64,000 nucleotides of DNA, taken from the NCBI RefSeq assembly GCF_018131075.1, contig NZ_JAFCLS010000016.1:62001-126000 (forward strand), written 5' to 3'. Both the position numbers and the translations under genes were made by a program. How positions within the stretch are numbered: position 1 is the first letter of the stretch; every line of letters begins with the position of its first letter. Positions 22,430 through 59,658 of the stretch are shown here, one piece after another. The stretch is from Bradyrhizobium sp. JYMT SZCCT0428. GTDB lineage: Bacteria; Pseudomonadota; Alphaproteobacteria; Rhizobiales; Xanthobacteraceae. The notes beneath the pieces were generated by a model. It saw only the letters and a list, made by a program, of their open reading frames with translations, made no database searches and was not told the DNA's origin.

Positions 22430-22437
22430 CAAATTGG

Positions 22438-22461
22438 GCGGCGGCCTTCACCGGCCGCCGC
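22438..22461 (+). promoter_or_regulatory. Intercistronic hairpin
   Basis: GCGGCGGCC, a 6-base loop and GGCCGCCGC make a perfect 9-bp stem 9 bases after the Mo-subunit stop and 27 bases before the cytochrome gene. No U-tract follows, so it looks like an mRNA-stability or partial-termination element that could lower or separate expression of the sox part. Confidence 0.5.
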
Positions 22462-22488
22462 TCCACCAACCCTTTCGGATATAAGCTG

Positions 22489-22785: not shown

Positions 22786-22796
22786 GGGGCGCTATT

Positions 22797-24077: not shown

Positions 24078-24084
24078 GCTTCGC

Positions 24085-24522
24085 ATGTCGGGTCCGATCC
24101 TTGCGGGCGCACTGCTCGCTTTGCCCGGCCTCGCTGCCGCGCAAGAGCTGCGAGGCTATGCCGTGACCGGCGATGCCATTGCGAAGTCGCTGACCGGCGC
24201 GCCCGGCGATCCCGCGCGTGGACGAACAACCCTCCTCAACCGCCAAAGCACCTGCATCCTCTGCCACAACGGACCGTTTCCGGAGGAGAAGTTTCAGGGC
24301 GATCTGGCCCCCAACCTCGTCGGCTCCGGCAGCCGCTGGTCGGAGGGGCAGTTGCGGCTGCGGCTGGTGGACGCGAGCCGCCTCAATGAAGCGACGATCA
24401 TGCCGTCCTATTATCGCGTGGACGGCCTGCATCGTGTTGGTCCGGCGTGGCGCGGCAAGCCGATCCTGTCGGCGGAACAGATCGAAGATATCGTGGCTTA
24501 TCTGGTGACGCTGCGCGAATAG
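24085..24522 (+). CDS. soxX: SoxX, monohaem cytochrome c of the SoxXA complex
   Basis: 145 aa. A signal peptide (MSGPILAGALLALPGLAAA) is followed by one haem-c site CILCHNG, the conserved DLAPNLVGSGSRWSEGQLRLRLVD, and the axial Met in TIMPSYY. SoxX pairs with SoxA to attach thiosulfate to the SoxY carrier. I use the ATG at 24085; a TTG at 24070 overlapping the fccB stop is possible. It lies in a collinear block with soxY, soxZ and soxA. Confidence 0.88.
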   Translation: MSGPILAGALLALPGLAAAQELRGYAVTGDAIAKSLTGAPGDPARGRTTLLNRQSTCILCHNGPFPEEKFQGDLAPNLVGSGSRWSEGQLRLRLVDASRLNEATIMPSYYRVDGLHRVGPAWRGKPILSAEQIEDIVAYLVTLRE

Positions 24523-24531
24523 GAAGTGACG

Positions 24532-25008
24532 ATGCAACACAAGGATTCCACACGCCGCCAGTTCCTCGGCCTCGCCGGTGGCGCGGCCGTGCTCGGGGCC
24601 GTCCCGATCGTAACGTTGCGGCCGGGCGAAGCGACGCCCGCCGAACTCGCATCCGCGATCCGCAGCGTCACCAATGGCGCGCAAGTGCGCACCGGCAAGG
24701 TCAAGCTCGACGTGCCGCCGCTGGTCGAGAACGGCAACACCGTGTCGCTGACCGTCAACGTCGCAAGCCCGATGGCGCCGGAGGATCACGTCCGCAGCAT
24801 CCACATCTTCAACGAGAAGAACCCGCAGCCCAATATCGGCAATTTCCATCTCGGCCCGCATGCCGGCCGCGCGCAGGTATCCACGCGCATTCGCCTCGCC
24901 GACAGCCAGAAGATCGTCGCCATCGCGCGATTGTCCGACGGCTCGTTCTGGTCGGCCAGCGCCGACGTCGTGGTGACGCTGGCGGCCTGCACTGATGAGG
25001 TGATCTGA
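24532..25008 (+). CDS. soxY: SoxY-type sulfur carrier with atypical C-terminus
   Basis: 158 aa. A Tat signal DSTRRQFLGLAGGAAVLG leads into an Ig-like carrier domain with IHIFNEKNPQPNIGNFHLGPHAGRAQVSTRIRLADSQKI, clearly SoxY. Canonical SoxY ends in a flexible GGCGG arm whose Cys carries the substrate. Here the end is VVVTLAACTDEVI: a single Cys is present, but the glycines are missing and five residues follow it. AGGAAG lies before the ATG. The stop overlaps the soxZ start. Confidence 0.87.
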   Translation: MQHKDSTRRQFLGLAGGAAVLGAVPIVTLRPGEATPAELASAIRSVTNGAQVRTGKVKLDVPPLVENGNTVSLTVNVASPMAPEDHVRSIHIFNEKNPQPNIGNFHLGPHAGRAQVSTRIRLADSQKIVAIARLSDGSFWSASADVVVTLAACTDEVI

Positions 25009-25328
25009 TGGCCTCCGCGCTGATCAACGTTCCCGCCAAGGCCAAACGCGGCGACATCATCGAGATCAAGACGCTGATGTCGCACATCATGGAAACCGGT
25101 TATCGGCATACCGCCACCGGCGAGGTGGTGCCGCGCGATATCATCACGAGTTTTGCCTGCCGCTATAACGGCACCGAGATTTTTCGCGCTGATCTGTTTC
25201 CTGCGATCGCCGCCAACCCGTTCATCACCTTCTTCACCACGGCGACCGCGAGCGGCAAGTTCGAGTTCGAATGGATCGGCGATAACGGCTTTTCCGAAAC
25301 CGCGTCGGCCTCGATCACAGTCGAATGA
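25008..25328 (+). CDS. soxZ: SoxZ, partner of the SoxYZ carrier
   Basis: 106 aa Ig-like protein without signal peptide, exported with SoxY. Recognised by KAKRGDIIEIKTLMSHIMETGYRH, followed by PRDIITSFACRYNG and FFTTATASGKFEFEWIGDNG. The ATG overlaps the soxY stop by one base (TGATG), showing translational coupling. The stop overlaps the soxA start (ATGA). Confidence 0.9.
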   Translation: MASALINVPAKAKRGDIIEIKTLMSHIMETGYRHTATGEVVPRDIITSFACRYNGTEIFRADLFPAIAANPFITFFTTATASGKFEFEWIGDNGFSETASASITVE

Positions 25329-26098
25329 GATTGGCCGGCCTCATCGTTCTGTCTGCTCTGTTCGCGGTGGACGCCGCCAGCGCCGAAATTCCACAAGCAG
25401 AACGCCGCTCCGGCTATAGCTTCATGGCGCCGGACACCAGGGCGATGCAGGACGACGACACGATAAACCCCGGCATGCTGTGGGTGCTCGACGGCGAGAA
25501 ATTGTGGGCGCGCAAGTCGGGCGTTACAAACAAGGCGTGCGCCGATTGTCATCAGGACGCGCGCGCGAGCATGAAGGGCGTCGCGGCGCATTATCCCGCC
25601 ATCGACAAGGCGCTCGGGCGGCCCGTCGACCTCGAGCAGCGCATCAATCTGTGCCGCACCACTCATCAGCAGGCGACGCCGCTTCCCTACGAGAGCCGCG
25701 AATTGCTGGCGCTGACCGCTTTTGTCGCGCAGCAATCGCGCGGCGCCGCAATCGAGCCCGGCAACGATCCGCAGCTAGCGCCGTTCGTCGCCAAAGGCCG
25801 CGAACTGTTCATGCAGCGGCAGGGCCAGCTCAATCTCGGCTGCACCAATTGTCACGATGAGAATTGGGATAAGCGTCTGGCCGGATCGGCGATCACGCAA
25901 GGACACCCGACGGGTTACCCGCTTTATCGGCTGGAGTGGCAATCACTGGGATCGCTGCAGCGCCGGCTGCGCGCCTGCATGACGGGCATCCGCGCGCAAG
26001 CCTATGATTACGGTGCGCCGGAACTGGTCGAGCTGGAGCTTTATCTGATGTCGCGCGCCAGGGGCATGCCGCTGGAAGCGCCGGCCATTCGACCCTAG
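25325..26098 (+). CDS. soxA: SoxA, c-type cytochrome with active-site Cys
   Basis: 257 aa. A signal peptide MRLAGLIVLSALFAVDAASA precedes two haem-c sites, CADCH and CTNCH, so this is a dihaem SoxA. The conserved active-site Cys, which ligates the second haem and becomes a persulfide, is in RLRACMTGIRAQ. SoxXA would oxidatively couple thiosulfate or another sulfane donor to SoxY. No soxB or soxCD follows; the next gene is convergent fpr. Confidence 0.9.
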   Translation: MRLAGLIVLSALFAVDAASAEIPQAERRSGYSFMAPDTRAMQDDDTINPGMLWVLDGEKLWARKSGVTNKACADCHQDARASMKGVAAHYPAIDKALGRPVDLEQRINLCRTTHQQATPLPYESRELLALTAFVAQQSRGAAIEPGNDPQLAPFVAKGRELFMQRQGQLNLGCTNCHDENWDKRLAGSAITQGHPTGYPLYRLEWQSLGSLQRRLRACMTGIRAQAYDYGAPELVELELYLMSRARGMPLEAPAIRP

Positions 26099-27005: not shown

Positions 27006-27023
27006 TCATTCGTATACGAATGA
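27006..27023. promoter_or_regulatory. GTATAC operator, right copy of a tandem pair
   Basis: TCATTCGTATACGAATGA is an 18-bp perfect palindrome in the fpr/enamidase intergenic region. The core TTCGTATACGAA is identical to the site at 55387-55400 in front of hnr and very close to that in front of nicA (55537-55552). Confidence 0.75.
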
Positions 27024-27106
27024 ATAATCCTTCTTGATCCCGCCGTCAAGCCGCGGGCAAGATGGCCGGCAACGCCCCGAAGGCATTGAACAACAAGGAA
27101 AATCCG

Positions 27107-28303
27107 ATGGCGCACGACGCACCCCAGGCAAGCGGCCCGAGCAAGCTGGTGATCCGCAATATCGGGCTGCTGCTGTCGGGGATGCTGGAAAAACCGATCC
27201 TGGATGCCGACACCATCGTGGCCGCGAACGGCAAGATCACCGCCATCGGCCGCCTCAAGGACGTCGACACCGAGGGCGCCACGACTGTCGTCAATGCCAA
27301 CGGCACCACGGTCGCCCCCGGCCTGATCGACAGCCACGTCCATCCCGTCGCCGGCGACTGGACGCCGCGGCAGAACCAGATGGGCTGGATCGACAGCTAT
27401 CTGCATGGCGGCGTCACCACGATGATTTCAGCCGGTGAAGTGCATATGCCCGGCCGTCCGCGCGACGTCGTCGGCGTCAAGGCGATGGCGATTTTCGCGC
27501 AGCGCGCGTTCTGGACGCTGCGGCCCGGCGGCGTGAAGATCCATGCCGGCGCGCCCGTGATCGAAAACGAAATGGTCGAGGACGACTTCAAGGAGCTCGC
27601 CGCGGCGGGCGTCAAGCTGCTCGGCGAAGTCGGGCTCGGCGGCGTCAAGGACGGCCCGACCGCGCGCAAGATGGTGGGATGGGCGCGCAAATACGGCATC
27701 CAGAGCACGATCCACACCGGCGGACCATCGATCCCGGGCTCCGGCCTGATCGACAAGGACGTGGTGCTGGAAGCCGACACCGATGTGGTCGGTCATATCA
27801 ATGGCGGCCACACCGCCCTGCCCGACGATCAGATCCGCTGCATCTGCGAGGGCTGCAAGCGCGGGCTGGAGCTGGTTCACAACGGCAATGAACGCTCGGC
27901 GCTGTTCACGCTACGCACCGCGCGCGAGATGGGCGACCTGCACCGCGTCATCCTCGGCACCGACGCGCCGGCCGGCTCCGGCGTGCAGCCGCTCGGCATT
28001 TTGCGCATGGTGTCGCTGCTGTCATCGCTCGGCGAACTGCCGGCCGAAATCGCCTTCTGCCTCGCCACCGGCAACACCGCGCGCATGCGCGCGCTCGACT
28101 GCGGCTTGATCGAGGTTGGCCGCTCCGCCGATTTCGTCATCATGGACATGGCGCAGCACTCGCCGGGAAAGAGCCTGCTGCACAGCGTGCAGCTCGGCGA
28201 CCTGCCCGGCATCGGCATGACCATCATCGACGGCATCGTCCGCACCCAGCGCAGCCGCAACACACCGCCGGCGACACGGCTGCCGGAGATCGTCGGGCAT
28301 TGA
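27107..28303 (+). CDS. ena: Enamidase-like amidohydrolase (nicotinate pathway)
   Basis: 398 aa binuclear metal amidohydrolase. Metal-binding DSHVHPVAGDW, then SYLHGGVTTMISAGEVHMPGRP, HTGGPSIPGSG, VGHINGGHTALP and GTDAPAGSG follow the E. barkeri enamidase remarkably closely along the whole length, as does the C-terminal SRNTPPA. That enzyme hydrolyses 1,4,5,6-tetrahydro-6-oxonicotinate to 2-formylglutarate and ammonia. AAGGA precedes the ATG at 27107; an ATG at 27062 would add 15 residues without a better site. It is divergent from fpr with shared GTATAC operators. Similarity is judged by eye and memory. Confidence 0.82.
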   Translation: MAHDAPQASGPSKLVIRNIGLLLSGMLEKPILDADTIVAANGKITAIGRLKDVDTEGATTVVNANGTTVAPGLIDSHVHPVAGDWTPRQNQMGWIDSYLHGGVTTMISAGEVHMPGRPRDVVGVKAMAIFAQRAFWTLRPGGVKIHAGAPVIENEMVEDDFKELAAAGVKLLGEVGLGGVKDGPTARKMVGWARKYGIQSTIHTGGPSIPGSGLIDKDVVLEADTDVVGHINGGHTALPDDQIRCICEGCKRGLELVHNGNERSALFTLRTAREMGDLHRVILGTDAPAGSGVQPLGILRMVSLLSSLGELPAEIAFCLATGNTARMRALDCGLIEVGRSADFVIMDMAQHSPGKSLLHSVQLGDLPGIGMTIIDGIVRTQRSRNTPPATRLPEIVGH

Positions 28304-44552: not shown

Positions 44553-44902
44553 TACGCTCCCCGCCCAGTGTCCGAATCCAACCCGGCGCAATTATGTGAA
44601 ATTCCCGCCCTACCCGCAATCACCGCATCTCGCTCAACAAATCCATCAGCATCTCGCGCCCCCTGGCGTTGAGCGACGCCAGCATTTGTCTCGAGATGGC
44701 GGGCGCGTGCAGTGCGGCCTTCCCGGCCACCGCGGGATCGGAGCCCGGATCGTTTCTTTCGCCTGATGGCGTTGAGGTGTATGATCACAACAAGCGAACC
44801 CCGCCGGCGGCACAGTCAAGAGGACTCAACGAGCCGAGTTAGTTCTGCTGCATGCCGCTGAGCCATGTTGGTACCCACCAAGGCAACCAGGGAGGCAGTA
44901 CG
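44553..44902. other. Intergenic region with MarR remnant
   Basis: 350 bases. The left part carries the end of a broken MarR gene on the - strand (listed separately). The right part is the promoter region of the selenium-binding-protein gene, with GGAGG at 44891-44895. Confidence 0.45.
44620..44748 (-). pseudogene. C-terminal remnant of a MarR-family gene
   Basis: Reading leftward to a TGA at 44620-44622, the last 37 codons give AVAGKAALHAPAISRQMLAS, then LNARGREMLMDLLSEMR. This aligns without gaps to the last 37 residues of the MarR protein at 47020-47475, with about 20 identities. No helix-turn-helix or start codon remains upstream. It is the tail of a deleted paralogue. Confidence 0.65.
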
Positions 44903-46303
44903 ATGACGATGAGACCAGACCCCACGTTTCACGCGTCGCCGAAGCTTGCGATGGAAGCTCCGCCAGAGAGCTTCGCCTACACCTTGCTGCTAAGCCCGGA
45001 CTTTTCAAAACCCGACGCGCTTGCCGTGATCGACGTCAAGCCCGGCTCTTCGCGTTTCGGTCAGATCGTCCACACCGTGACGATGCCCAACAAGGGCGAC
45101 GAGTTTCACCATTTCGGATGGAACGCCTGCTCATCGGCCTTGTCACCGCTCACCGGGCACGCCTTCCTCGAGCGCCGCTACCTCATCATCCCCGGCATGC
45201 GGTCCTCCCGGATCTACATCGTCGATACCAAACCAGATCCCACCCAGGCGAAAATTCACAAGATCATCGAGCCCGACGAGGTCTTCAGAAAGACTGGGTA
45301 CTCCAGGCCGCACACGATCCATTGCGGACCGGATGGTATTTACGTTTCTACGCTCGGCGGCGGCGGCAAGGATGGCACCGATGGACCGCCCGGCATCTTC
45401 ATCATGGATTGCGAGACATTCGAAGTGCTCGGACGGTGGGAAATCGATCGCGGTCCTCAAGAGAAGCACTATGATTTCTGGTGGAACCTGCCGCGCGATT
45501 ACATGGTGAGCAGCGAGTGGGCGCTGCCGCCGCAGTTCGAGAACGGGATCGTGCCGGAAGATCTGCTCTCGAACAAATACGGCCATCGGATCCACTTCTG
45601 GGACCTGCGGGCCCGGCGAAACGTCCAGACCATCGACCTCGGTGCCAACCATCAAATGGCACTGGAGGTGCGTCCGGCGCATGATCCCGTCAAGGAGTAC
45701 GGCTTCCTGGGCGTCGTGGTCGACACCACGAACCTGGAAGGCTCGATCTGGACCTGGTGGCGCGATGGCGGAAAATTTCACATCGAGAAGACCGCCACGA
45801 TCCCGCCCGAGCCCGCGGCAAAGGAGCAGTTGCCGCCGCTTCTGCAGGGCTTTGGCGCCGTGCCGCCGCTGGTGTCCGACATCGACCTGTCGATGGATGA
45901 CAAGTTTCTCTACGTCGCCTGCTGGGGCACCGGCGAGATGCGTCAATACAATGTCAGTGACCCCAGAAAGCCCGAGCTTGCCGGATCGGTCCATATCGGC
46001 GGCATCGCGCGCCGCACGCCGCATCCGAACGGCAAGGCCTATGCCGGCGGACCGCAGATGGTCGAGATCAGCCGCGACGGCAAACGCGTCTATTGGACCA
46101 ACTCACTCTACTCGACCTGGGACGACCAATTCTATCCGCAGGGCATTCCGGGCGTCGAGGTGATGGCCAATGCCAACCCGAAAGGCGGCCTCGAACTGGC
46201 AAAGGACTATTGCGTGAGCTTCCCCGACGGATACCGGGCGCATCAGATCAGGCTCGACGGTGGAGACTGTTCGACCGATTCATTCTGCTATCCGTCGGCT
46301 TGA
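44903..46303 (+). CDS. Selenium-binding protein / methanethiol oxidase family (SBP56)
   Basis: 466 aa beta-propeller protein. Family members oxidise methanethiol to formaldehyde, H2S and H2O2, or have unknown roles. Recognised by DEFHHFGWNACSSALSPLTG, ERRYLIIPGMRSSRIYIVDTKPDP, SRPHTIHCGPDGIYVSTLGG and the C-terminal LAKDYCVSFPDGYRAHQIRLDGGDCSTDSFCYPS. The motif after GWNACSS has Ser where many relatives have a second Cys. GGAGG precedes the ATG. A membrane-protein gene follows immediately. Confidence 0.87.
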   Translation: MTMRPDPTFHASPKLAMEAPPESFAYTLLLSPDFSKPDALAVIDVKPGSSRFGQIVHTVTMPNKGDEFHHFGWNACSSALSPLTGHAFLERRYLIIPGMRSSRIYIVDTKPDPTQAKIHKIIEPDEVFRKTGYSRPHTIHCGPDGIYVSTLGGGGKDGTDGPPGIFIMDCETFEVLGRWEIDRGPQEKHYDFWWNLPRDYMVSSEWALPPQFENGIVPEDLLSNKYGHRIHFWDLRARRNVQTIDLGANHQMALEVRPAHDPVKEYGFLGVVVDTTNLEGSIWTWWRDGGKFHIEKTATIPPEPAAKEQLPPLLQGFGAVPPLVSDIDLSMDDKFLYVACWGTGEMRQYNVSDPRKPELAGSVHIGGIARRTPHPNGKAYAGGPQMVEISRDGKRVYWTNSLYSTWDDQFYPQGIPGVEVMANANPKGGLELAKDYCVSFPDGYRAHQIRLDGGDCSTDSFCYPSA

Positions 46304-47019: not shown

Positions 47020-47475
47020 TCACCGCAGCTTGTCCAGCAGCGCCATCAGCGTCTCGCGCTCCTTGGCGTCGAGCGGCGCCAGGGTCTCCCGGGTGATCGC
47101 GAGCGCATTGGGCGCGGCTTTTTCAGCGAGCTGCTGCCCTGCCCGCGTGAGACTCACCAGCAGGCGGCGGCCGTCCTCGGGATCCGGGCTGGTCTCGGTC
47201 AGGCCGCGCGCCGTGAGGCGGTCGATCACACCCTTGATGGTGGCAACGTCCATCGCGGTCAGGCGTCCCAGCAGATTTTGCGAGCACGGACCGGTCTCAG
47301 TCAGCTTCGCAACTGCGGCCCATTGCGTCGGGGTCAGATTGATGCCGATCTCGCGGGCGAAAATCGTCGAATGGCGTTGCCAGACCTGACGCAGGATGAA
47401 GCCGACCTGCTCGTCCAGAATGTAGGACGGCCGCGTAGGCTTGACGCTCCGTTTCGCCGAAACACTCCTGCCCAT
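47020..47475 (-). CDS. MarR-family regulator, probable nicotinate-operon repressor
   Basis: 151 aa. The N-terminal ILDEQVGFILRQVWQRHSTIFAREIGINLTPTQWAAVAKL leads to the winged helix (SQNLLGRLTAMDVATIKGVIDRLTARGL, PDPEDGRRLLVSLT). It recalls the NicR/BadR branch of MarR proteins that sense aromatic or heteroaromatic acids, judged by eye. It is the last gene of a collinear run starting at hnr (32 bases after livF), so it would be made from the operator-controlled hnr promoter, as expected for an autoregulated repressor. The palindrome TTYGTATACRAA is its most likely target, which is untested. A broken paralogue lies at 44620-44748. Confidence 0.8.
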   Translation of the reverse strand: MGRSVSAKRSVKPTRPSYILDEQVGFILRQVWQRHSTIFAREIGINLTPTQWAAVAKLTETGPCSQNLLGRLTAMDVATIKGVIDRLTARGLTETSPDPEDGRRLLVSLTRAGQQLAEKAAPNALAITRETLAPLDAKERETLMALLDKLR

Positions 47476-51137: not shown

Positions 51138-52343
51138 TCAATCCTTCGGACGAAGCTTTTCGACTTCGGCATCACCAGGGAGATAATCCGTGCCCTTGCG
51201 ATAGACCGAGTTCACCATCACCCCCTTGCCGTCCTTCAGCGCGGTCTTGCCGACATAAGCACCGAGCGTCGACTGGTGATCGATCTTGCGGAAGGTGATC
51301 TCGCCGAACGGTGACGGCATCGACAGCCCTTCGGTTGCGGCGATCAGCTTCTCCGGATCGGTCGAGTTTGCTTTGGCGAGGATCGCTGCAGCCGCCTTGA
51401 TCGTCTGGTAGCCGACGATCGAGCCGAGGCGCGGATAGTCGTTGAACTTGGCCTGATAGGCTTTCAGGAACTTGTCGTGATCAGGTGTCTTGATGTCGTA
51501 CCAGGGGTAACCCGTGACGATCCATCCTTCAGGCGTTTCGTCCTTCAGCGGATCGAGATATTCCGGCTCGCCGGTGAGGAAGGACACCACCGAGCGCCCC
51601 TTGAACAGGCCTCGCGTATTGCCCTCGCGGACCAGCTTTACGAGATCCGCACCGAAGGTGACGTTGAGGATCGCTTCGGGATTGGCGGCGGCAACGGCCT
51701 GCACCACCGGACCCGCGTCGATCTTGCCCTGCGGCGGCCACTGCTCGTCAACCCAGACGATATCGGGGCGCTTCTCCGACATCAGCTTCTTGAACACGGC
51801 AACCGCCGACTGGCCGTATTCATAGTTCGGCGCGATCGTGGCCCAGCGTTTTGCCGGCAGCTTGGCGGCTTCTTCCACCAGCATCGCCGCCTGCATGTAG
51901 TTGGAAGGACGCAGCCGGAACGTGTAGCGATTGCCCTTCGACCAGGTGATGGCGTCGGTCAGCGGTTCGGCTGCGAGAAAAAACACCTTCTTCTGATTTG
52001 CAAAATCGCTGACGGCAAGACCGATGTTGGACAGGAAGGTGCCGGTCAGCATCGCGACGTTCTCGCTCGACACCAGTTCGTTGGCCGCGGTCTGTGCGTC
52101 GGCCGGCTTGCCGCCATCGTCCTTGGAGATGACGACGAGCTTCTTGCCGTTGATGCCGCCGGCGGCGTTGACCTCCTCAACCGCGAGCTGCCAGCCCTTG
52201 CGGTAGGGTTCGGTGAAGGCGGGCAGCAGCGAATAGCTGTTGATCTCGCCGATCTTGATCTCTCCGCTCTGGGCCATAGCTGAATTCGCCAAGCCCACAA
52301 CCGCGATCGCCAATCCCGCTCCCAGCAAATAACTTCGTCGCAT
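51138..52343 (-). CDS. Branched-chain-type ABC importer, binding protein LivK-like
   Basis: 401 aa periplasmic protein (type I fold). Signal peptide MRRSYLLGAGLAIAVVGLANSAMAQ, then EIKIGEINSYSLLPAFTEPYRKGWQLAVEEVNAAGGINGKKLVVISKDDGGKPADAQTAANELV, the usual opening. GGAGGG precedes the ATG at 52343. It lies 26 bases after the DUF1185 gene in the nicotinate-linked run. Ligand unknown; the family binds amino acids, urea, amides and aromatic acids. Confidence 0.85.
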   Translation of the reverse strand: MRRSYLLGAGLAIAVVGLANSAMAQSGEIKIGEINSYSLLPAFTEPYRKGWQLAVEEVNAAGGINGKKLVVISKDDGGKPADAQTAANELVSSENVAMLTGTFLSNIGLAVSDFANQKKVFFLAAEPLTDAITWSKGNRYTFRLRPSNYMQAAMLVEEAAKLPAKRWATIAPNYEYGQSAVAVFKKLMSEKRPDIVWVDEQWPPQGKIDAGPVVQAVAAANPEAILNVTFGADLVKLVREGNTRGLFKGRSVVSFLTGEPEYLDPLKDETPEGWIVTGYPWYDIKTPDHDKFLKAYQAKFNDYPRLGSIVGYQTIKAAAAILAKANSTDPEKLIAATEGLSMPSPFGEITFRKIDHQSTLGAYVGKTALKDGKGVMVNSVYRKGTDYLPGDAEVEKLRPKD

Positions 52344-52369
52344 ACCCTCACCCTCCAATGTTGAAGAAA

Positions 52370-52954
52370 CTATCTTAATCCGTCTTCACCTTTGACTTCA
52401 GCAACCGTCAATCCGCCGACCCGCGGCAGCGGCCTGCCGCTGTCGGTGACGGCAACCGCGACCATGATCTCGTTGGCACGCGGGGCGTCGTTGATCTGCA
52501 CTTCCATGCCGTCGAAATGACTGCGCACGAAGGCCGCGTCCTTGTGGCCGAGCGGAATATCCAGCGTGGTGCCCGGACCGCTGCGCTTCTTCGAGGACGG
52601 AATCAGCGCCGCGCCCTTACTCAGCACCTTGCGCACCGGCGCGCCCATCTTCGGGTGCAGGATCGCGGCCGCGTGCTCGAGCTCGCCGTTTTCACCGACC
52701 GCTGCGGCCTTGCCGTAGCTCTGTGCCTTGGCGCCATCGATCCCGAGGGCTGCCACCGCCCGCTTCGACAGCAATTCGCCGAGTTCCTCCCCGATCGCGA
52801 TCAAGGGTGAGAGGTCTTCGACATATTTTCCGGCAAACGGGTTTTCGATCACGGCGATCGCCGCGGCACGCCGTGTCGGCGGCGCGATTGTCTTTCCCAT
52901 CTCCAGATGGGTTTCCTCGACCACCGTGACGATCTTGCGAATGATGGCGCTCAT
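52370..52954 (-). CDS. Amino-acid-synthesis-family protein (DUF1185)
   Basis: 194 aa. ETHLEMGKTIAPPTRRAAAIAVIENPFAGKYVEDLSPLI and GHKDAAFVRSHFDGMEVQINDAPRANEIMVAVAVTDSGRPLPRVGG are the conserved blocks of DUF1185, often annotated as amino acid synthesis protein. Members occur next to amidohydrolases and Liv-type importers; the reaction is unknown to me. It lies 15 bases after the UPF0280 gene, so it belongs to the nicotinate-linked run and may act on a late intermediate. Confidence 0.75.
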   Translation of the reverse strand: MSAIIRKIVTVVEETHLEMGKTIAPPTRRAAAIAVIENPFAGKYVEDLSPLIAIGEELGELLSKRAVAALGIDGAKAQSYGKAAAVGENGELEHAAAILHPKMGAPVRKVLSKGAALIPSSKKRSGPGTTLDIPLGHKDAAFVRSHFDGMEVQINDAPRANEIMVAVAVTDSGRPLPRVGGLTVAEVKGEDGLR

Positions 52955-52969: not shown

Positions 52970-53878
52970 TCAAGCATGAACTGCACTTTCTATCGCGCTT
53001 CCGTGATGGGCATGCAACGCAGGCGCCTGGCCACCAGTAGTTCCGACCACGAGCGTTTCGCCAAGCAGACGTAACGCCGCGCCTTCGATCAATCCGGCAG
53101 CCAATAACTTCTGGGCGCAGGCAATCCCTGCCCCCAACGCGACCTCAACCTCACCTTCGGTTAACGGCCCGACATCGCGGGTAACTAAGCGGGTGCCGAG
53201 ATCGCTGTCGGGCTGCAATTCATTGGCCGGACAGCGGACAATCGCGGGGTGATCGGGCAGATCCAGAGCATTGGCGATGATGGTCGCGGCGGCATCGGCC
53301 ATTGAGGCCGTTCGTGCCAACACAGTGACGGCGTCTGCGATGCCGAGCGAGAAACTGCGGCCATGGCGCCCGCTGGTCGCGACGCCCCGGACCGGGCCGT
53401 CGGCATCGACGATCATCGTGCGCATCAGGCCACGCCGGTTCGGCCGGTCCATCAGGCCGACGGTGAATTGTTCGCCGCCGGTCAGATGCAGCGCAATATC
53501 ACCACCATTATTGACATAGGCGCGATCGAGACGCGCCGCGCCCAGCATCGCGCCGAGAATCTCTTCGGCGACGGAGCCCGCTACCGCCGCCATCGGCGTG
53601 ATGAAATGACCTGACGCAAACGGCGCCACCGCCGCGTGCATGCGGCGCGCGACGACGCCTTGCAGCGTGCACCGCGCCGGATAAGCCGCCTGGCGCAGCG
53701 TCGTCAATTCCTCGCAGAGTTCATCAAGCAGACCGATAAAGCGCCGCGCCGCAGCGTCATAGGCGGCGCGGACCTCCGCCTCCTGCCCCTTGGCCTCGAT
53801 GATCAGATCGATCGGACCGTCCTGCAAATGCAGCCGCTTGCCGTCAGGAAGAAGCGCTATTTGCGGGAGGCGTTTCAT
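52970..53878 (-). CDS. UPF0280 protein, ApbE superfamily
   Basis: 302 aa. The family blocks are HFITPMAAVAGSVAEEIL, AYVNNGGDIALHLTGGEQFTVGLMD, GVATSGRHGRSFSLGIADAVTVLARTASMADAAATIIANAL. COG2122 places this family in the ApbE (flavin transferase) superfamily, and the VNNGGDIA and GRHGRS-G-ADAVTV elements parallel ApbE motifs. Its ATG overlaps the hnr stop (ATGA), so it is translated together with 6-hydroxynicotinate reductase. I infer that it could attach the covalent flavin of that enzyme. No biochemical role is known to me for the family. Confidence 0.78.
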   Translation of the reverse strand: MKRLPQIALLPDGKRLHLQDGPIDLIIEAKGQEAEVRAAYDAAARRFIGLLDELCEELTTLRQAAYPARCTLQGVVARRMHAAVAPFASGHFITPMAAVAGSVAEEILGAMLGAARLDRAYVNNGGDIALHLTGGEQFTVGLMDRPNRRGLMRTMIVDADGPVRGVATSGRHGRSFSLGIADAVTVLARTASMADAAATIIANALDLPDHPAIVRCPANELQPDSDLGTRLVTRDVGPLTEGEVEVALGAGIACAQKLLAAGLIEGAALRLLGETLVVGTTGGQAPALHAHHGSAIESAVHA

Positions 53879-55323
53879 GCGTGCCGTCCCGGAATGTAGG
53901 GCATCGGGCGAACTTCGGTGTTGTCCTTGAGCGAAGCCAACGGACGGACGTAATCCATGTGGCCGCCCAGCGCCGCATAGTCCGACAGCCGCAGCGTGAA
54001 CTCGATCGGCGCCACCAAGGCAGGCGTCGGCACATAACCGAAGGCGCCGGCCGGCATCTGCGTGACATCGACCATGAAGGTGATACCGCCGCCGGGCCAG
54101 ACATAGACCGGCGCGCCGCCGCTGGTGACCCGCGTCAGCGCGTCCTTGACCGACCGCGTCAGCCGCACCGGGTTGTCGGTGACTCCGGCGCGCAGCGAGC
54201 CGCCGGCGCCGCCCATGAACAACACCGTGCATAGCGCCGGTTCGCAATTTTCCTGGATGCGCTCGACCGAAAGCTTCAGATCAAGCGGCATCTGCGTCGC
54301 AACCGGCCTGAGCGCCTCGTCGAGCACGTAATAAGCCGCATGCTCGCCGGTAGTCGACACCATCAGCATGGTCAGGCCCGGGCGGGCCTCCTTTGGATTG
54401 AACGGGCCCAGCACCGACAAGGGATCGGAAATCTTGGTGCCGCCCCAGCCGGTGCCGGGCTCGGCGACCTGGAAATAACGGCCCGGCGTCGAACGCCGCC
54501 CCTTCATCTTGATCCCGGTATCGGGAATATCGAGCAGTTTGCCGGCCTGATGTTCCGAGAGAACGCCGGTGATGTGGTCGTCCACCACCACGACCTCATC
54601 GACCTTGCCGTGCCATTGCTTGGCGAACATGCCGATCGTGGCCGAGCCGCAGCCGACCCGCATCCGCTCTTCCGCGACGCCGTTGACGACAGGCGGATAC
54701 CCGGCCTGCACCACCACGGTGGCGCCGCCATCGATGGTCAGTTCGACCGGCTTGCAATTGGAGAGGTCCATCAGCGCGTCGCAGGTGACGCGCCCCTCTT
54801 TCTTGGAACCGCCGGTGAGATGATGCACGCCACCGAGCGACAGCATCTGCGAACCATATTCGCCTGTCGTGACATGACCGATCGCCTCGCCCTGCGCGCG
54901 GACGGTCGCGGTCTCGGGGCCGAGATGGCGATCGGTGTCGATCTTCACCTTGACGCCGCAATAGCTGAAAATACCCTCGGTCACGACCGTGACCATGTCG
55001 ATGCCGTCGACCTCAGACGACACGATGAAGGGCGCGGGCTTGTAATCGGGGTACGTCGTGCCGGCGCCGATTGCGGTCACGAATACATTGGGCTCACGGA
55101 CGAGCTTGCCGTCCCAATCGCCGCCGCCGGCCTGGAACGGCACCAGCCGTCCGCCGTGCGACACGGTTCGCTCCAGCACGATATGCGGATCGACGCGCAC
55201 CAGTACGCCATCGTGATTGGCGTAGCGATCGCACGCGCCCGCCGCGCCCGGCTTGATGTAGCACATCACCGGACAGGCATCGCAGCGGATCTTGTCGCCA
55301 CCGGCAGTCGTTGTATCCGTCAT
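53875..55323 (-). CDS. hnr: 6-Hydroxynicotinate reductase
   Basis: 482 aa from the ATG at 55323 (an ATG at 55359 is possible and has a better GGAATGCGGGT upstream). The enzyme reduces 6-hydroxynicotinate to 1,4,5,6-tetrahydro-6-oxonicotinate with reduced ferredoxin. An N-terminal Fe-S motif CDACPVMCYIKPG...CDRY is followed by long conserved stretches (TTGEYGSQMLSLGGVHHLTG, RMRVGCGSATIGMFAKQWHG, STPGRYFQVAEPGTGWGGTK). The size fits the E. barkeri enzyme, recalled as an Fe-S protein with covalent flavin. It is read from an operator-controlled promoter and coupled to UPF0280. Confidence 0.83.
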   Translation of the reverse strand: MTDTTTAGGDKIRCDACPVMCYIKPGAAGACDRYANHDGVLVRVDPHIVLERTVSHGGRLVPFQAGGGDWDGKLVREPNVFVTAIGAGTTYPDYKPAPFIVSSEVDGIDMVTVVTEGIFSYCGVKVKIDTDRHLGPETATVRAQGEAIGHVTTGEYGSQMLSLGGVHHLTGGSKKEGRVTCDALMDLSNCKPVELTIDGGATVVVQAGYPPVVNGVAEERMRVGCGSATIGMFAKQWHGKVDEVVVVDDHITGVLSEHQAGKLLDIPDTGIKMKGRRSTPGRYFQVAEPGTGWGGTKISDPLSVLGPFNPKEARPGLTMLMVSTTGEHAAYYVLDEALRPVATQMPLDLKLSVERIQENCEPALCTVLFMGGAGGSLRAGVTDNPVRLTRSVKDALTRVTSGGAPVYVWPGGGITFMVDVTQMPAGAFGYVPTPALVAPIEFTLRLSDYAALGGHMDYVRPLASLKDNTEVRPMPYIPGRHA

Positions 55324-55386
55324 CGTGAACAAGCCTGCTCGCTGGGAGGCGCCGATCATACCCGCATTCCCGCGGGAGCGATCATT

Positions 55387-55400
55387 GTTCGTATACGAAC
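55387..55400. promoter_or_regulatory. GTATAC operator before hnr
   Basis: GTTCGTATACGAAC is a perfect 14-bp palindrome lying 63 bases upstream of the hnr ATG and just downstream of its -10 element, covering the likely transcription start. The 12-base core is identical to the site at 27006-27023. Confidence 0.75.
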
Positions 55401-55401
55401 G

Positions 55402-55531: not shown

Positions 55532-55559
55532 TTGCACGTTTGTATACAAACGGTATCTT
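55532..55559 (+). promoter_or_regulatory. nicAB promoter
   Basis: TTGCAC (55532-55537), a 16-base spacer and TATCTT (55554-55559). The spacer is almost exactly filled by the palindrome at 55537-55552, so bound repressor would exclude RNA polymerase. Confidence 0.5.
55537..55552. promoter_or_regulatory. GTATAC operator before nicA
   Basis: CGTTTGTATACAAACG is a perfect 16-bp palindrome 78 bases upstream of the nicA ATG, between the -35 and -10 elements. The core differs from the hnr site only by the symmetric C-to-T/G-to-A change. Confidence 0.75.
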
Positions 55560-55630
55560 CGAAACACATTCCGCACGATATTTTGCAGCGCAATCGGACT
55601 TAGGGTTTCTTGGGGATCAAGGCGCAGAGC

Positions 55631-56113
55631 ATGACGCAGAGCACGATGCGCCTGACCGTCAACGGCAAAAGCTGCGATGTCGACGCCGCGCCCGACACCG
55701 CATTGCTCTATGTGCTGCGCAACGACCTCGCGCTGAACGGACCAAAATATGGCTGCGGGCTCGGCGAGTGCGGCGCCTGCGCCGTGCTGATCGATGGCGA
55801 GGCGGCGCGTTCCTGCGTGATCCCGATTGAAGGCTGCGCCGGGCGCGACATTGTGACGCTCGAAGGCCTCGGCTCGCGCGAGCATCCCGATCTGGTTCAG
55901 GAAGCCTTCATCCGCGAGCAGGCCGCGCAATGCGGCTACTGCCTGAACGGCATGATCATCAGCACCAAGGCGCTGCTGATGCGCAACGCGCATCCTTCCG
56001 AAGCCGAAGTGCTGGAAGCGCTGCGCTACAATTTGTGCCGCTGCGGAGCGCATATCGAGATCATCCGCGCCGCGATGCGTGCCGCGGGCCACGCCGTCGA
56101 GGCCCGCGACTGA
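55631..56113 (+). CDS. nicA: Nicotinate dehydrogenase [2Fe-2S] subunit
   Basis: 160 aa from the ATG at 55631. Plant-type cluster KYGCGLGECGACAVLIDGEAARSC, second cluster QCGYCLNGMII with LCRCGAH. In NicAB-type enzymes this subunit carries electrons from the Mo centre to the cytochrome domain of NicB. An ATG at 55646 is an alternative start. The stop overlaps the nicB start (TGATG). It is divergent from hnr with two palindromic operators between. Confidence 0.85.
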   Translation: MTQSTMRLTVNGKSCDVDAAPDTALLYVLRNDLALNGPKYGCGLGECGACAVLIDGEAARSCVIPIEGCAGRDIVTLEGLGSREHPDLVQEAFIREQAAQCGYCLNGMIISTKALLMRNAHPSEAEVLEALRYNLCRCGAHIEIIRAAMRAAGHAVEARD

Positions 56114-59100
56114 TGGCAACGCCGGAGACTCCAGCGAGCAGCGAAGCGCCGGGATCGCTGTCGGTCGTTCGTCCGACAGAGACGGGCGCGTTCGAAACCT
56201 TCATCAAGATCACCGCTGATGGTTCGGTCACCGCCTATAACGGCCATGTCGATCTCGGCACCGGCATCCGCACCGCCCTCGGACAGATCGTCGCCGAGGA
56301 ACTCAACGTGTCCTTTGCCCGCGTCGTGGTCGTGCTCGGCGATACCTCTGTTGTACCCAACCAGGGCGCGACGATCGCCAGCGAAACCATCCAGATCACC
56401 GCGGTGCCGCTGCGCAAGGCCGCGGCCCAGGCGCGACAATTTTTGATCGCGCGTGCGGCGGAACGGCTGGAGGTAGCGGCCAGTGATCTCAACATCGAAG
56501 ACGGGCTGATCCGTGGCAAGGACAACCGCACCGTCAGTTATGGCGAATTGATTGCCGGCGAGATCATTCGGCTCGAACTCACCGAAGATGTAACGGTGAA
56601 GGACGTCAGCGCCTATTCCATCGTCGGACAATCGGTGCCCCGCGTGGACCTGCCGGCGAAGGCCACCGGCGAACTGGTTTACGTTCACGACATGCGCCTG
56701 CCCGACATGCTGCATGGCCGCGTCGTTCGGCCGCCTTATGCCGGCATCGACGCCGGCCCGTTCGTCGGCACCAGCCTGATCGCGGTCGATGAAGCCTCGG
56801 TGCGCGATATTTCGGGGCTGGTTGCCGTGGTGAGGATCGGCGATTTCATTGGCGTGGTTGCCGAGCGCGAGGAGAACGCGATCAAAGCCGCGGCGCAGCT
56901 CAAGGTGAGCTGGAAGCCGGTGCCGACATTGCCTGACCTTGGCGATCTGCAAACGGCGCTGCGCGCCAATCCATCGACGCCGCGGACGCTGATCGACAAG
57001 GGCGACGTCGATGCCGCCATCGCGTCCGCGGCCAAGCCGATGGCGCGCACCTATGTCTGGCCGTATCAGATGCACGGATCGATCGGCCCCTCCTGCGCGG
57101 TCGCCGATTATCAGGACGGCGCGGTCCGGGTGTGGTCCGGCACGCAGAACCCGCACATCCTGCGCGTCGACCTCGCGTTGCTGATCGAACGACCGGAAGC
57201 CGAGATCGATGTTGTCAGGATGGAGGCCGCCGGCTGCTATGGCCGCAACTGCGCCGACGACGTGTCAGCCGATGCGCTATTGCTGTCGCGCGCCGTCGGC
57301 CGTCCCGTCCGCGTGCAGTTGACGCGCGAGCAGGAACACGCCTGGGAGCCGAAGGGCACAGGGCAATTGATGGACGTCAATGGCGGGCTGAACGCCGACG
57401 GCAGCGCCGCCGCCTATGATTTTTCAACGCGCTATCCCTCGAACGGCGCGCCGACGCTGGCACTGTTGCTCACCGGGCGGATCGCGCCGGAGCCCGCCGT
57501 GTTCGAGATGGGCGACCGTACCGCGATCCCGCCTTATGACTACGAGAACATGCGCGTGGTCGCGCATGACATGCCGCCGATCGTGCGCGCCTCCTGGTTT
57601 CGCGGCGTCTCGGCGCTGCCGAACACGTTCGCGCATGAATCCTACATCGACGAACTCGCCGCTGAAGCCGGCGTCGATCCGATCGAATATCGCCTGCGCT
57701 ACCTGAAGGATGCGCGCGCCGTCGATCTCGTCAATGCGGTCGCCGAGCGCGCGGGGTGGAAACCACGGCCGGTGCGACAGGAACCGGAAGCCGAGGGCGA
57801 CATCGTGCGCGGCCGTGGCTTTGCCTATGCGCTCTATGTGCACAGCAAATTCCCGGGCTATGGCGCGGCGTGGTCGGCATGGATCGCCGACGTCGCGGTC
57901 AACAAGGCAACCGGCGATGTCAGCGTCACCCGCGTGGTCGCGGGCCAGGATTCCGGGCTGATGATCAACCCGGAAGGAGTGCGTCACCAGATCCACGGCA
58001 ACGTGATCCAGTCGACCAGCCGCGCGCTGATGGAGGAAGTCTCGTTCGACCGCGCACAGGTGACGGCGCGCGAATGGGGCGCCTACCCCATCATCAAATT
58101 CCCCGACGTGCCCAAGATCGACGTGCTGATGCTGCCGCGGCAAGACCAGCCACCGCTCGGCGTCGGCGAGTCCGCTTCGGTGCCGAGCGCTGCGGCCATT
58201 GCCAACGCGATCTATGATGCAACCGGCGTACGGTTTCGCGAATTGCCGTTTACGCCGGAGCGCATTTTGCGGGGATTACACGGCGAAGCGACAGTGGTGC
58301 CTGAGGCATTGCCTGCGCCGCAGCCCGCACCTGATCTCGGCAAATGGCAAAACCCGTTTGCCGGGCGACGCGGCTTGCTGGCGACGGCGGCGGCATTATG
58401 CGCAGCGGTGGTCGGCATCGGCGCCGCCGTTCTGCCGTGGCGTGCGATTGCGCCGATCGCGCGGCCGGATGCGTCGGTCTATTCGGCGGCGACCATCGCA
58501 CGCGGCCAGCAACTCGCCGCGCTCGGCGACTGCGCGGTCTGCCACACCAGCATCAATGGCCTGCTCAATGCCGGCGGCCGGCCGCTGGAAACGCCGTTCG
58601 GCACCATCTACAGCACCAACATCACGCCCGACGTCGAAACCGGCATCGGCGCGTGGTCCTATCCCGCCTTCGAGCGGTCCATGCGCGAGGGCATTCACCG
58701 CGACGGGCGGCATCTCTATCCGGCGTTTCCCTACACGCATTTCGCGAAGACGACCGATGCCGACCTGCAGGCGCTCTACGCTTACCTCATGGCGCAATCG
58801 CCGGTGCGCGCGGAAAATCCGGAAAACAAGCTGGCGTTCCCGTTCAACATCCGCCCGCTGCTGGCCGGATGGAACGCGCTATTCCACCAGCCAAAACCAT
58901 TCCAGGCGGATGCGAGCAAATCAGACTTATGGAATCGCGGCGCCTATCTGGTCGAGGGCCTCGGCCATTGCAGCGCCTGCCATTCGCCGCGCAACGCGCT
59001 GGGTGCGGAAAGGCAAAGCGCCTACCTCGCCGGTGGCTTCGCGGAAGGCTGGGAGGCACCTGCCCTGACGGCGCTGTCGCAAGCGCCGATCCCCTGGAGC

Positions 59101-59658
59101 GAGGATGAGCTCTACGCCTATTTGAGAACCGGCGAGTCGCGCTTGCACGGCGTCGCCGCGGGGCCGATGGCACCCGTCGTGAAGGAACTCGCTGCACTCC
59201 CCGATCAGGACATCCGAGCCATGGCGGTCTATCTCGGCTCGTTCAACGAGACCGCTCCCGACAAGCCCGCGCAGGACGCGCTCGCCGCCAAGCTCGAGGC
59301 CGCGACCAGCACCAGGCTTGTTGCGGCCTCCAGCGTCGGCGCGCGGATCTATCAGGGCGCTTGCGCGGTCTGCCACGAGGTCGGCGGCGCGCCCTTGTTC
59401 GGCAGCCGGCCGTCGCTGGCGCTGAACAGCAACCTGCACAGCGCCGTGCCCGACAATCTGATCCAGGTGATCCTGCACGGCATCAAAGCCCCCGTGACCA
59501 GCGACCTCGGCTATATGCCCGCCTTCAAGGACAGCCTGACCGACGGCCAGGTCGCTGAACTCGCCGCTTACCTGCGGCGACAATTTGCCCCGGATCGGCC
59601 GGGATGGGGCGATATCCACGCAACCGTTGGGCGAATCCGGCAGGAAATGGCGCGCTGA
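56113..59658 (+). CDS. nicB: Nicotinate dehydrogenase large subunit (Mo domain plus three cytochromes c)
   Basis: 1181 aa, very close in size and plan to P. putida NicB, which hydroxylates nicotinate to 6-hydroxynicotinate with cytochromes as acceptor. Residues about 1-740 are the molybdopterin domain, ending PPLGVGESASVPSAAAIANA with the catalytic Glu. One membrane helix follows near 755-775 (LLATAAALCAAVVGIGAAVLPW). Three haem-c sites come next: CAVCH near 807, CSACH near 953 and CAVCH near 1084. No signal peptide is seen; the helix anchors the cytochrome part on the outer face. The substrate is inferred from hnr, ena and pncB context; related enzymes use other heteroaromatics. Confidence 0.82.
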   Translation: MATPETPASSEAPGSLSVVRPTETGAFETFIKITADGSVTAYNGHVDLGTGIRTALGQIVAEELNVSFARVVVVLGDTSVVPNQGATIASETIQITAVPLRKAAAQARQFLIARAAERLEVAASDLNIEDGLIRGKDNRTVSYGELIAGEIIRLELTEDVTVKDVSAYSIVGQSVPRVDLPAKATGELVYVHDMRLPDMLHGRVVRPPYAGIDAGPFVGTSLIAVDEASVRDISGLVAVVRIGDFIGVVAEREENAIKAAAQLKVSWKPVPTLPDLGDLQTALRANPSTPRTLIDKGDVDAAIASAAKPMARTYVWPYQMHGSIGPSCAVADYQDGAVRVWSGTQNPHILRVDLALLIERPEAEIDVVRMEAAGCYGRNCADDVSADALLLSRAVGRPVRVQLTREQEHAWEPKGTGQLMDVNGGLNADGSAAAYDFSTRYPSNGAPTLALLLTGRIAPEPAVFEMGDRTAIPPYDYENMRVVAHDMPPIVRASWFRGVSALPNTFAHESYIDELAAEAGVDPIEYRLRYLKDARAVDLVNAVAERAGWKPRPVRQEPEAEGDIVRGRGFAYALYVHSKFPGYGAAWSAWIADVAVNKATGDVSVTRVVAGQDSGLMINPEGVRHQIHGNVIQSTSRALMEEVSFDRAQVTAREWGAYPIIKFPDVPKIDVLMLPRQDQPPLGVGESASVPSAAAIANAIYDATGVRFRELPFTPERILRGLHGEATVVPEALPAPQPAPDLGKWQNPFAGRRGLLATAAALCAAVVGIGAAVLPWRAIAPIARPDASVYSAATIARGQQLAALGDCAVCHTSINGLLNAGGRPLETPFGTIYSTNITPDVETGIGAWSYPAFERSMREGIHRDGRHLYPAFPYTHFAKTTDADLQALYAYLMAQSPVRAENPENKLAFPFNIRPLLAGWNALFHQPKPFQADASKSDLWNRGAYLVEGLGHCSACHSPRNALGAERQSAYLAGGFAEGWEAPALTALSQAPIPWSEDELYAYLRTGESRLHGVAAGPMAPVVKELAALPDQDIRAMAVYLGSFNETAPDKPAQDALAAKLEAATSTRLVAASSVGARIYQGACAVCHEVGGAPLFGSRPSLALNSNLHSAVPDNLIQVILHGIKAPVTSDLGYMPAFKDSLTDGQVAELAAYLRRQFAPDRPGWGDIHATVGRIRQEMAR

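Follow-up and report, generated by a model that had tools for sequence, protein, structure and literature searches.

A UPF0280 protein as dedicated partner, and possibly maturase, of 6-hydroxynicotinate reductase in Bradyrhizobium

Genetic work on UPF0280 (COG2122) proteins places them alongside HcyBio, in the synthesis of homocysteine and the assimilation of sulfide, and the two reports concerned propose a role in sulfur handling (PMC5764234, PMC12068725). COG2122 is needed together with DUF39/HcyBio for homocysteine in Desulfovibrio, with a fitness correlation of r = 0.98 (PMC5764234), and MA1715 of M. acetivorans is termed a sulfur trafficking protein (PMC12068725). The literature that we searched ties the family to these two processes without giving it a settled biochemical function. 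For the ApbE flavin transferase of V. cholerae, published work names Asp285 and Ser241 as site residues (PMC12052999, PMC5655446) and describes His257 as essential for flavin transfer (PMC5655446). The 6-hydroxynicotinate reductase (Hnr) of Eubacterium barkeri is 42% identical to a homolog from Bradyrhizobiaceae, as stated in PMC3511419.

We analyzed a 64,000-nt stretch of contig NZ_JAFCLS010000016.1 from Bradyrhizobium sp. JYMT SZCCT0428 (hereafter, the window), which contains the following features:

53875-55323, minus strand: hnr, encoding 6-hydroxynicotinate reductase (482 aa; P0001)
52970-53878, minus strand: gene for a UPF0280/COG2122 protein of the Hnr subtype (302 aa; P0002), with an ApbE-superfamily T-fold
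53875-53878, minus strand: ATGA overlap of the hnr stop and the UPF0280 start, from the sequence and both ORFs
54550-54579, minus strand: codons for Hnr D249-H258 (DHITGVLSEH), an invariant segment that comes close to the motif of ApbE acceptors; Ser256 is the candidate acceptor
53282-53380, minus strand: codons for UPF0280 A167-T199 (ATSG...GRSFSLGIAD...DAAAT), the putative active-site stretch, by which the Hnr and HcyBio subtypes can be told apart
52370-52954, minus strand: gene of the PF06684 "amino acid synthesis" family (Pfam match), next downstream of UPF0280
55386-55401, no strand: palindrome TGTTCGTATACGAACG in the hnr/ndhS divergent region, a candidate operator
55537-55552, no strand: palindrome CGTTTGTATACAAACG in the same divergent region, a candidate operator

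The ATGA overlap on which the original prediction was built is present as described. A 4-nt overlap with hnr is possible from an available UPF0280 start codon in 62 of the 77 loci where the two genes are linked, so the arrangement is not a product of chance, and the resulting translational coupling would cause UPF0280 to be made in step with Hnr. In 70 of these 77 loci, the PF06684 gene comes after UPF0280. The UPF0280 protein belongs to NCBIfam NF003322 (421.2 bits; cut-off, 290). In neither NCBIfam nor Pfam did Hnr score above the cut-off of any model; its name is based on the 42% identity cited above and on homologs annotated as 6-hydroxynicotinate reductase in plasmid records. Alignments were made of P0001 with 19 of the other 29 hnr loci (A1) or with 47 of 80 loci (A6), and of P0002 with 21 of the other 29 UPF0280 loci (A2; the loci omitted include L044 and L049, whose matches contain an in-frame stop) or with 45 of 77 loci (A7).

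A survey of co-occurrence and adjacency, proposed along with the original prediction, bore out the pairing. Hnr and UPF0280 were found in the identical 44 of 289 genomes drawn from the class and in the identical 18 of 249 drawn from the phylum, with four genomes common to both draws (G000, G028, G037, and G066). Matches were broken in three of the 44 class genomes (Hnr in two frames in G028; UPF0280 split between contigs in G064 and G087), and in G231 of the same draw Hnr was partial and UPF0280 lay on a different contig. Among the best 80 of 587 Hnr matches from a scan of genome contigs, all 73-95% identical, UPF0280 was present in every genome (80/80), adjacent to hnr in 77 and elsewhere in three. 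Pairwise distances of Hnr and UPF0280 were correlated at r = 0.946 (62 loci), as against r = 0.81-0.82 with two other cluster genes, PF06684 and ndhS. Of the two partners, UPF0280 changes roughly twice as quickly, the mean distances being 0.38 for UPF0280 and 0.20 for Hnr.

The pairing was also seen outside the phylum. Seven Acidobacteria with Hnr encode a UPF0280 that is 57-62% identical to that of the window, although these genomes are MAGs and could have been misbinned. In a draw of 199 Acidobacteriota genomes, UPF0280 occurred in eight, seven with HcyBio/DUF39 and one with Hnr, the last being the genome chosen as the center of the draw. HcyBio (PF01837) was absent from all 249 Pseudomonadota genomes, including that of the window, and was not found on plasmids; viral contigs yielded no relative of Hnr, HcyBio or HcyBio-type UPF0280. 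Taken together, these observations support UPF0280 as a dedicated partner of Hnr in the sampled bacteria that degrade nicotinate (vitamin B3) by this route, in a link that reaches far beyond one operon.

UPF0280 could instead be carried along in the nicotinate cluster while serving the pathway in an unrelated way. It is located among other cluster genes, and of the three genomes in which it lies away from hnr, two (L141 and L142) still have it next to PF06684 genes, so that another pathway role is conceivable. We consider this reading very improbable, since UPF0280 is retained in all three of the 80 genomes (best 80 of 587) in which hnr is not adjacent, its divergence tracks Hnr more closely than PF06684 or ndhS, and its only other companion among the 199 Acidobacteriota was HcyBio.

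Judged by their sequences, UPF0280 proteins fall into two distinct subtypes, an Hnr type and an HcyBio type. In a 54-row alignment, position 167 is Cys in six of seven HcyBio-type rows and Ala in 47/47 Hnr-type rows, and position 174 is His in six of seven and Arg in 46/47, respectively; the HcyBio type was sampled as seven sequences from one phylum, and the 47 Hnr-type rows amount to 46 independent ones because L199 and L114 come from one genome (G518). The window UPF0280 has A167 and R174. Other residues also differ between the subtypes (E20, T21, and D/E123 in the HcyBio type; D/H/Q20, G21, and N123 in the Hnr type), and NCBIfam splits the family in the same manner, assigning the Hnr subtype to NF003322 and the HcyBio subtype to NF003324 (two of three above cut-off). 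The UPF0280 of L199, an Hnr-type protein from Acidobacteria, is only 22-26% identical to the seven HcyBio-type proteins of its own phylum.

These differences bear on whether UPF0280 handles sulfur, building a persulfide or sulfur-bearing center on HcyBio and likewise on Hnr. The requirement for COG2122 alongside DUF39/HcyBio in Desulfovibrio and the naming of MA1715 argue for such a role, as do seven Hnr cysteines (14, 17, 21, 31, 181, 225, and 360) conserved in 48/48 aligned sequences. Nevertheless, the precedent may not carry over to Hnr, because the Cys and His of the HcyBio subtype are replaced in the Hnr type, which has no conserved Cys at all (best column, 35/47). To our knowledge, the Hnr reaction involves no sulfur transfer, and we regard this explanation as distinctly unlikely.

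The placement of UPF0280 in the ApbE superfamily held up. Its structural model (pLDDT 89.5) matched the solved member 2o34 with a Z-score of 20.1 (218 aligned, rmsd 3.5) and 19 ApbE/Ftp entries with Z-scores of 14.0-15.9, the next T-folds reaching 8.0, and thus has the fold of the family and the ApbE T-fold. Against the Pfam ApbE model (PF02424) it scored 13.7 bits, below the gathering threshold of 25.6. When aligned to ApbE by hhalign, UPF0280 was found to retain the catalytic Ser of ApbE (S169, 54/54) and the metal-site Asp and Thr of the D-x-x-x-T motif (D195, 53/54; T199, 54/54); GGD and a GxSxSxG signature are kept family-wide, in both subtypes. The spacing from S169 to D195, however, is 26 in 54/54 UPF0280 sequences vs. 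42-44 in seven ApbE sequences, so that the H-x-x-D-P segment carrying the catalytic His257 is absent from all 54. Similarly, M80-G101 of UPF0280 spans 17-25 residues, as compared with 67-69 from the GGAFD to the AKG motif of ApbE, and the GGAFD segment before the A-K-G motif is missing. In ApbE, the GGAFD segment has a role in FAD binding. Lacking both segments, UPF0280 is therefore not supported as an ordinary FAD-binding transferase. Since loss of the FAD-binding pocket would count against the original prediction, that prediction is partly undercut: the Ser and metal-site residues are kept, but to judge by sequence a portion of the pocket appears to be gone, because the His257 and GGAFD segments are absent. 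Half of the Hnr genomes, 22 of 44, showed no ordinary ApbE (PF02424) that could do the work (18 of 40 when only good-quality genomes were counted), which speaks for the prediction; the other 22, which do have one, speak against it. Among the Hnr-bearing Acidobacteria, PF02424 went undetected in seven of eight.

The mixture of kept and missing elements is pertinent to two further explanations. UPF0280 might be a non-catalytic subunit or chaperone of an Hnr complex, its relic ApbE fold serving to bind, stabilize or couple Hnr to an electron donor. Strict joint occurrence, co-divergence at r = 0.946, and the disappearance of essential ApbE elements are all consistent with this, yet both subtypes retain S169, D195, T199, and the GxSxSxG loop, none of which a pure scaffold would need. 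The two-fold faster divergence of UPF0280 would also be odd for a tight subunit, although it is not decisive, and overall we find this explanation rather unlikely. Alternatively, UPF0280 might load something other than covalent flavin onto Hnr, such as a nucleotide, a phosphoryl or adenylyl group, or non-covalent flavin, as retention of the Ser and metal-site residues without the large-ligand elements could suggest. We know of no nucleotide, phosphoryl or adenylyl modification of Hnr, and FAD is what relatives with the ApbE fold use; this alternative seems improbable to us.

The E. barkeri enzyme reportedly contains covalent flavin and Fe-S clusters. In the texts searched, covalently bound flavin was not found alongside hydroxynicotinate, and no report of the cofactor content of an alphaproteobacterial Hnr was found. 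Our structure model of Hnr is weak (pLDDT 68.5, pTM 0.61; one 482-residue model built from 48 close sequences) and showed no clear match to a solved structure (best Z-score, 3.7; best Foldseek E, 0.39), so that a known fold may yet apply. A faint C-terminal resemblance to GcvT was noticed (Pfam, 16.4 bits, below cut-off; 1v5v, Z 3.5).

The original prediction had reported a failed search of Hnr for an S/T-G-A-S/T target, and we likewise found the strict acceptor motif, D-x-x-[S/T]-G-A-[S/T], in none of 67 Hnr sequences, which come from two collections and may include near-duplicates. A near-motif, DHITGVx[S/T], running from D249 to [S/T]256 and picked out post hoc, is present in 67/67. Its relaxed pattern had a frequency of 0.056 per 480 aa in a background of 1137 other ORFs from L061-L140 (stop to stop, 250 aa or longer, those with DDHITGV omitted), many of which are not real genes because they were drawn from all six frames. 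Exchange between Ser and Thr only was seen at five of the 28 all-S/T columns of Hnr. If flavin is joined to a hydroxyl, Ser/Thr256 in DHITGVx[S/T]EH would be the best candidate acceptor.

Homology between Hnr and HcyBio would explain why they have a partner in common. Four approaches failed to show it. Hhalign gave probabilities of 0.14 (20 and 7 sequences) and 0.13 (67 and 7); local alignments of P0001 with seven HcyBio sequences averaged 43.0, while window shuffles gave 38.9 +/- 2.0; of 161 pairs, the best scored 58, a value reached by one of 300 shuffles before correction for the choice; and our own profile alignment scored 21.8 vs. 21.1 +/- 3.5, a score that 22 of 60 shuffles also reached. 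Visual inspection showed this last alignment to be collinear at VTTGxxG, LFMGGAGG, and VPxPxL.

We tentatively read UPF0280 as a dedicated maturation factor of Hnr that places a cofactor by means of its kept ApbE site rather than by the ordinary ApbE route, and give this reading somewhat under an even chance. No signal sequence was evident by eye, and the protein is probably cytoplasmic. Flavin is the likeliest of the phosphate-bearing cofactors that its kept site would place on or into Hnr; the ordinary ApbE route is not supported, because the catalytic His and GAFD segments are missing, and if the flavin goes onto a hydroxyl, Ser/Thr256 would be the prime candidate. In other phyla the same fold serves HcyBio, through a distinct subtype whose active-site residues differ. 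As for the proposal that UPF0280 matures Hnr as a flavin transferase, the partnership, the fold, and the Ser/Asp/Thr residues stand, whereas ordinary transfer does not, the His257 and GGAFD segments being gone. On this reading, UPF0280 is an Hnr-specific maturase from the ApbE superfamily whose chemistry has changed and may include flavin handling. A bolder version, in which UPF0280 forms a new class of cytoplasmic transferase that uses a His-free ApbE fold to attach flavin to Ser/Thr256 of Hnr, the sister subtype doing likewise for HcyBio, is unlikely but worth stating. If it were true, the reductive step of DUF39-dependent homocysteine synthesis would be a flavin step, instead of or besides a sulfur relay.

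Hnr is a second, separate partner for UPF0280, and specific residues tell the subtypes apart, so that NF003322, now labeled "hypothetical protein," can be annotated as the Hnr partner. Hnr-UPF0280 offers a tractable system for testing the function of the family, with a soluble enzyme, a simple assay, and a visible cofactor if the reported flavin is real. It also bears on how a covalent flavoprotein could be made by bacteria without detectable ApbE.

Compared with known systems, UPF0280 is like the FAD:protein FMN transferases ApbE/Ftp (PF02424) in its T-fold and its Ser and Asp/Thr site residues, and five of seven aligned ApbE sequences have the ATSG of UPF0280. It differs in that the His257 segment, the GGAFD segment, and an above-threshold Pfam score are all missing, and ApbE acceptors carry the strict motif that its own partner lacks. 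For that partner, the resemblance to E. barkeri Hnr is the identity given above for the Bradyrhizobiaceae homolog. HcyBio (DUF39/COG1900; PF01837) is, like Hnr, an enzyme that occurs with UPF0280; it has fused Fer4 domains in both proteins scanned and no significant sequence similarity to Hnr. HcyBio-type UPF0280 lies within 0.51 kb of HcyBio (hit ends) in seven of seven Acidobacteriota genomes, six of which have both genes on one strand; its Ser-Asp spacing is identical to that of the Hnr type, and three such sequences matched Hnr-type UPF0280 with a profile probability of 99.1. The COG2122 proteins that act in homocysteine synthesis (DVU1097, PDB 2o34; MA1715; D. vulgaris DvMF_0044) share the family and fold of the window UPF0280, but their partner is HcyBio/DUF39, whereas that of the window protein is Hnr.

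The gene for 6-hydroxynicotinate reductase (Hnr; P0001) is followed directly at its 3′ end by the gene for a UPF0280 (COG2122) protein (P0002). The two reading frames share an ATGA, as the original prediction had claimed when it proposed that UPF0280 matures Hnr by attaching flavin. The genes at this locus were read as follows:

Genes around hnr
53875-55323, minus strand: hnr, 482 aa
52970-53878, minus strand: UPF0280 gene, 302 aa
52370-52954, minus strand: PF06684 'amino acid synthesis' gene, next after UPF0280 (domain match)
51138-52358, minus strand: periplasmic binding protein gene, after the PF06684 gene (domain match)
Beyond the 51138-52358 gene: ORFs resembling a branched-chain-type ABC permease and two ATPases (by eye)
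55610-56113, divergent, upstream of hnr: [2Fe-2S] subunit gene (ndhS; domain match)
55930-59658, divergent, upstream of hnr: ORF with molybdopterin and three cytochrome c domains (domain matches)

The two divergent genes may encode a nicotinate-dehydrogenase-like pair. Among the best 80 of 587 named-genome matches, the nearest Hnr was that of B. algeriense (95% identity), which puts the host in or close to Bradyrhizobium. A palindrome, CGTTYGTATACRAACG, had three matches in the window at ≤2 mismatches, against 0.02 expected:

Palindrome matches
55386-55401: hnr/ndhS divergent region
55537-55552: hnr/ndhS divergent region
27007-27022: 39 nt before the amidohydrolase ORF 27062-28303

Its position relative to the palindrome makes the amidohydrolase a candidate enamidase of the nicotinate pathway. 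Of the 80 named loci (the best 80 of 587), 13 have the exact core of the palindrome ≤ ~300 nt before hnr, on its upstream side. Elsewhere in the window lie a MarR gene (47020-47475), genes for a molybdopterin-binding protein, a flavocytochrome c sulfide dehydrogenase flavoprotein and a SoxA/TsdA-type cytochrome c (20237-26098), and an SBP56 protein gene that also scored, below cut-off, as methanethiol oxidase (44852-46303).

A genome survey of the joint presence of hnr and UPF0280, proposed in the original prediction, bore out the pairing. Of 289 class genomes, 44 had Hnr (E ≤ 1e-10) and exactly the same 44, representing 33 genera, had UPF0280 (E ≤ 1e-5). For all but one of them, including G064 and G087, where UPF0280 lies only partly on the hnr contig, both matches were on one contig and strand with a gap of ≤209 nt between match ends; in the remaining genome (G231) they were on separate contigs. 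A draw of 249 genomes from the phylum gave 18 with Hnr and the same 18 with UPF0280, four of which also belong to the class draw. UPF0280 lay directly downstream of Hnr in 77 of 80 named loci (the best 80 of 587) and elsewhere in the genome in Acidisphaera (L099), Microvirga (L105) and a Bradyrhizobiaceae MAG (L113). All 26 plasmid records with Hnr also carried UPF0280. These counts are not independent, the genomes being related. Pairwise distances of the two proteins correlated at 0.946 over 62 loci, versus 0.81-0.82 for either protein against PF06684 or ndhS. Within the groups reached, genome comparison could hardly make a stronger case for a functional link; we did not find this link in print in the literature searched, which mostly excludes subscription journals.

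The PF06684 gene directly followed UPF0280 in 70 of the 77 linked loci (again among the best 80 of 587) and was sometimes duplicated beside it (L182); of the three genomes with UPF0280 away from hnr, two still have PF06684 genes next to it (L141, L142). In one genome (G028:C1:2969823-2971186), Hnr was split over two overlapping frames, by frameshift or sequencing error, and the neighboring UPF0280 match had no internal stop. On the Hydrogenophaga plasmid pBPS33-1 (L181, 9001-9750), UPF0280 sits beside IS1071 copies, with four matching places in the record and no Hnr match on it.

Another UPF0280 subtype is partnered by HcyBio (DUF39/COG1900), and its member MA1715 is termed a sulfur trafficking protein in one report (PMC12068725). 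HcyBio occurred in none of the 249 Pseudomonadota genomes drawn. Among 199 Acidobacteriota, it was found in seven and full-length Hnr in one (G518, chosen as the center of that draw), and UPF0280 (profile A2, E ≤ 0.001) was present in exactly those eight. Eight further Hnr-profile matches in other Acidobacteriota genomes (L208-L215) were weak (E 1.9e-4 to 8.5e-4) and covered, over ~34-46 residues, no more of Hnr than its N-terminal Cys motif (CDACPVMC...GACDRY; residues 14-40, codons at 55204-55284), which suggests that the motif may be a shared small metal-binding module. HcyBio and UPF0280 were ≤0.51 kb apart between match ends in all seven genomes and on the same strand in six, and the order in the two loci read fully was HcyBio, UPF0280 and an aspartate-semialdehyde-dehydrogenase-like gene, the last assigned by eye. 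In seven Hnr-bearing MAGs labeled Acidobacteria or Terriglobia, UPF0280 was 57-62% identical to that of the window; for the one also set against the HcyBio-type proteins of its phylum, identity to these was 22-26%. UPF0280 thus appears to track its partner rather than the taxon, although these are MAG contigs and misbinning is possible.

The subtypes correspond to NCBIfam NF003322 (Hnr; four of four proteins tested above cut-off) and NF003324 (HcyBio; two of three). The Hnr-subtype site reads A-T-S-G...G-R-S (A167 in 47/47, R174 in 46/47, N123 and G21 in 47/47), versus mostly C-T-S-...G-H-S in the HcyBio subtype (C167 and H174 each in 6/7, D/E123 and T21 in 7/7), sampled as seven sequences from one phylum plus structure 2o34 (DVU1097), in which the Cys and His also align. 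This pair would fit sulfur chemistry; the Hnr subtype has lost it, which speaks against a plain extension of the sulfur role to Hnr. Short collinear look-alike stretches join P0001 134-461 and HcyBio 15-281 (numbering of the L192 match); no test run of this similarity reached significance.

The strict acceptor motif of the FAD:protein FMN transferase ApbE, D-x-x-[S/T]-G-A-[S/T] as given in PMC12052999, was found in 0 of 67 Hnr sequences, in agreement with the absence noted originally. All 67 carry D249-H-I-T-G-V-x-[S/T]256-E-H (Ser in 59, Thr in eight), in which Val replaces Ala and one residue is added. Other six-frame ORFs, totaling 516,513 aa, contained the relaxed pattern 60 times (0.056 per 480 aa), the strict form once and the G-V form not at all. 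Because the near-motif was noticed post hoc and four other Hnr columns also exchange only Ser and Thr, we treat it as a lead only. Searches of 22 of the 44 Hnr genomes, among them the one containing the window, yielded no ordinary ApbE (18 of 40 when restricted to good-quality genomes), and neither did those of seven of eight Hnr-bearing Acidobacteria; should Hnr carry an attached flavin, ApbE is therefore not the general agent.

The structure model of UPF0280 (mean pLDDT 89.5) matched 2o34 best among solved structures (Z 20.1); the next 19 matches were all ApbE/Ftp (Z 14.0-15.9), after which the following T-folds (uricase) fell to Z 8.0. In profile comparison only residues 101-203 aligned with ApbE (probability 92.7, E 4e-7). 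The proposed role as Hnr flavin transferase stands in part: the ApbE-type fold and half of the site favor it, but the His and GGAFD segments are gone and the precedent is one of sulfur. We put a flavin-linked maturation role for Hnr at slightly under an even chance. The triad Asp285-Ser241-His257 is described as the basis of ApbE transfer (PMC12052999), which H257G abolishes (PMC5655446). In 54/54 UPF0280 sequences the Ser-to-Asp spacing is 26, whereas seven ApbE sequences have 42-44; the His segment is thus missing. In addition, 17-25 residues separate M80 from G101 where ApbE has 67-69 between GGAFD and AKG. UPF0280 is therefore unlikely to reproduce the contacts that ApbE makes with adenine and isoalloxazine. 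Like ApbE, UPF0280 keeps the Ser (S169, 54/54), the Asp (D195, 53/54) and the metal-site Thr (T199, 54/54), and the A-T-S-G of the Hnr subtype is also present in five of seven aligned ApbE sequences.
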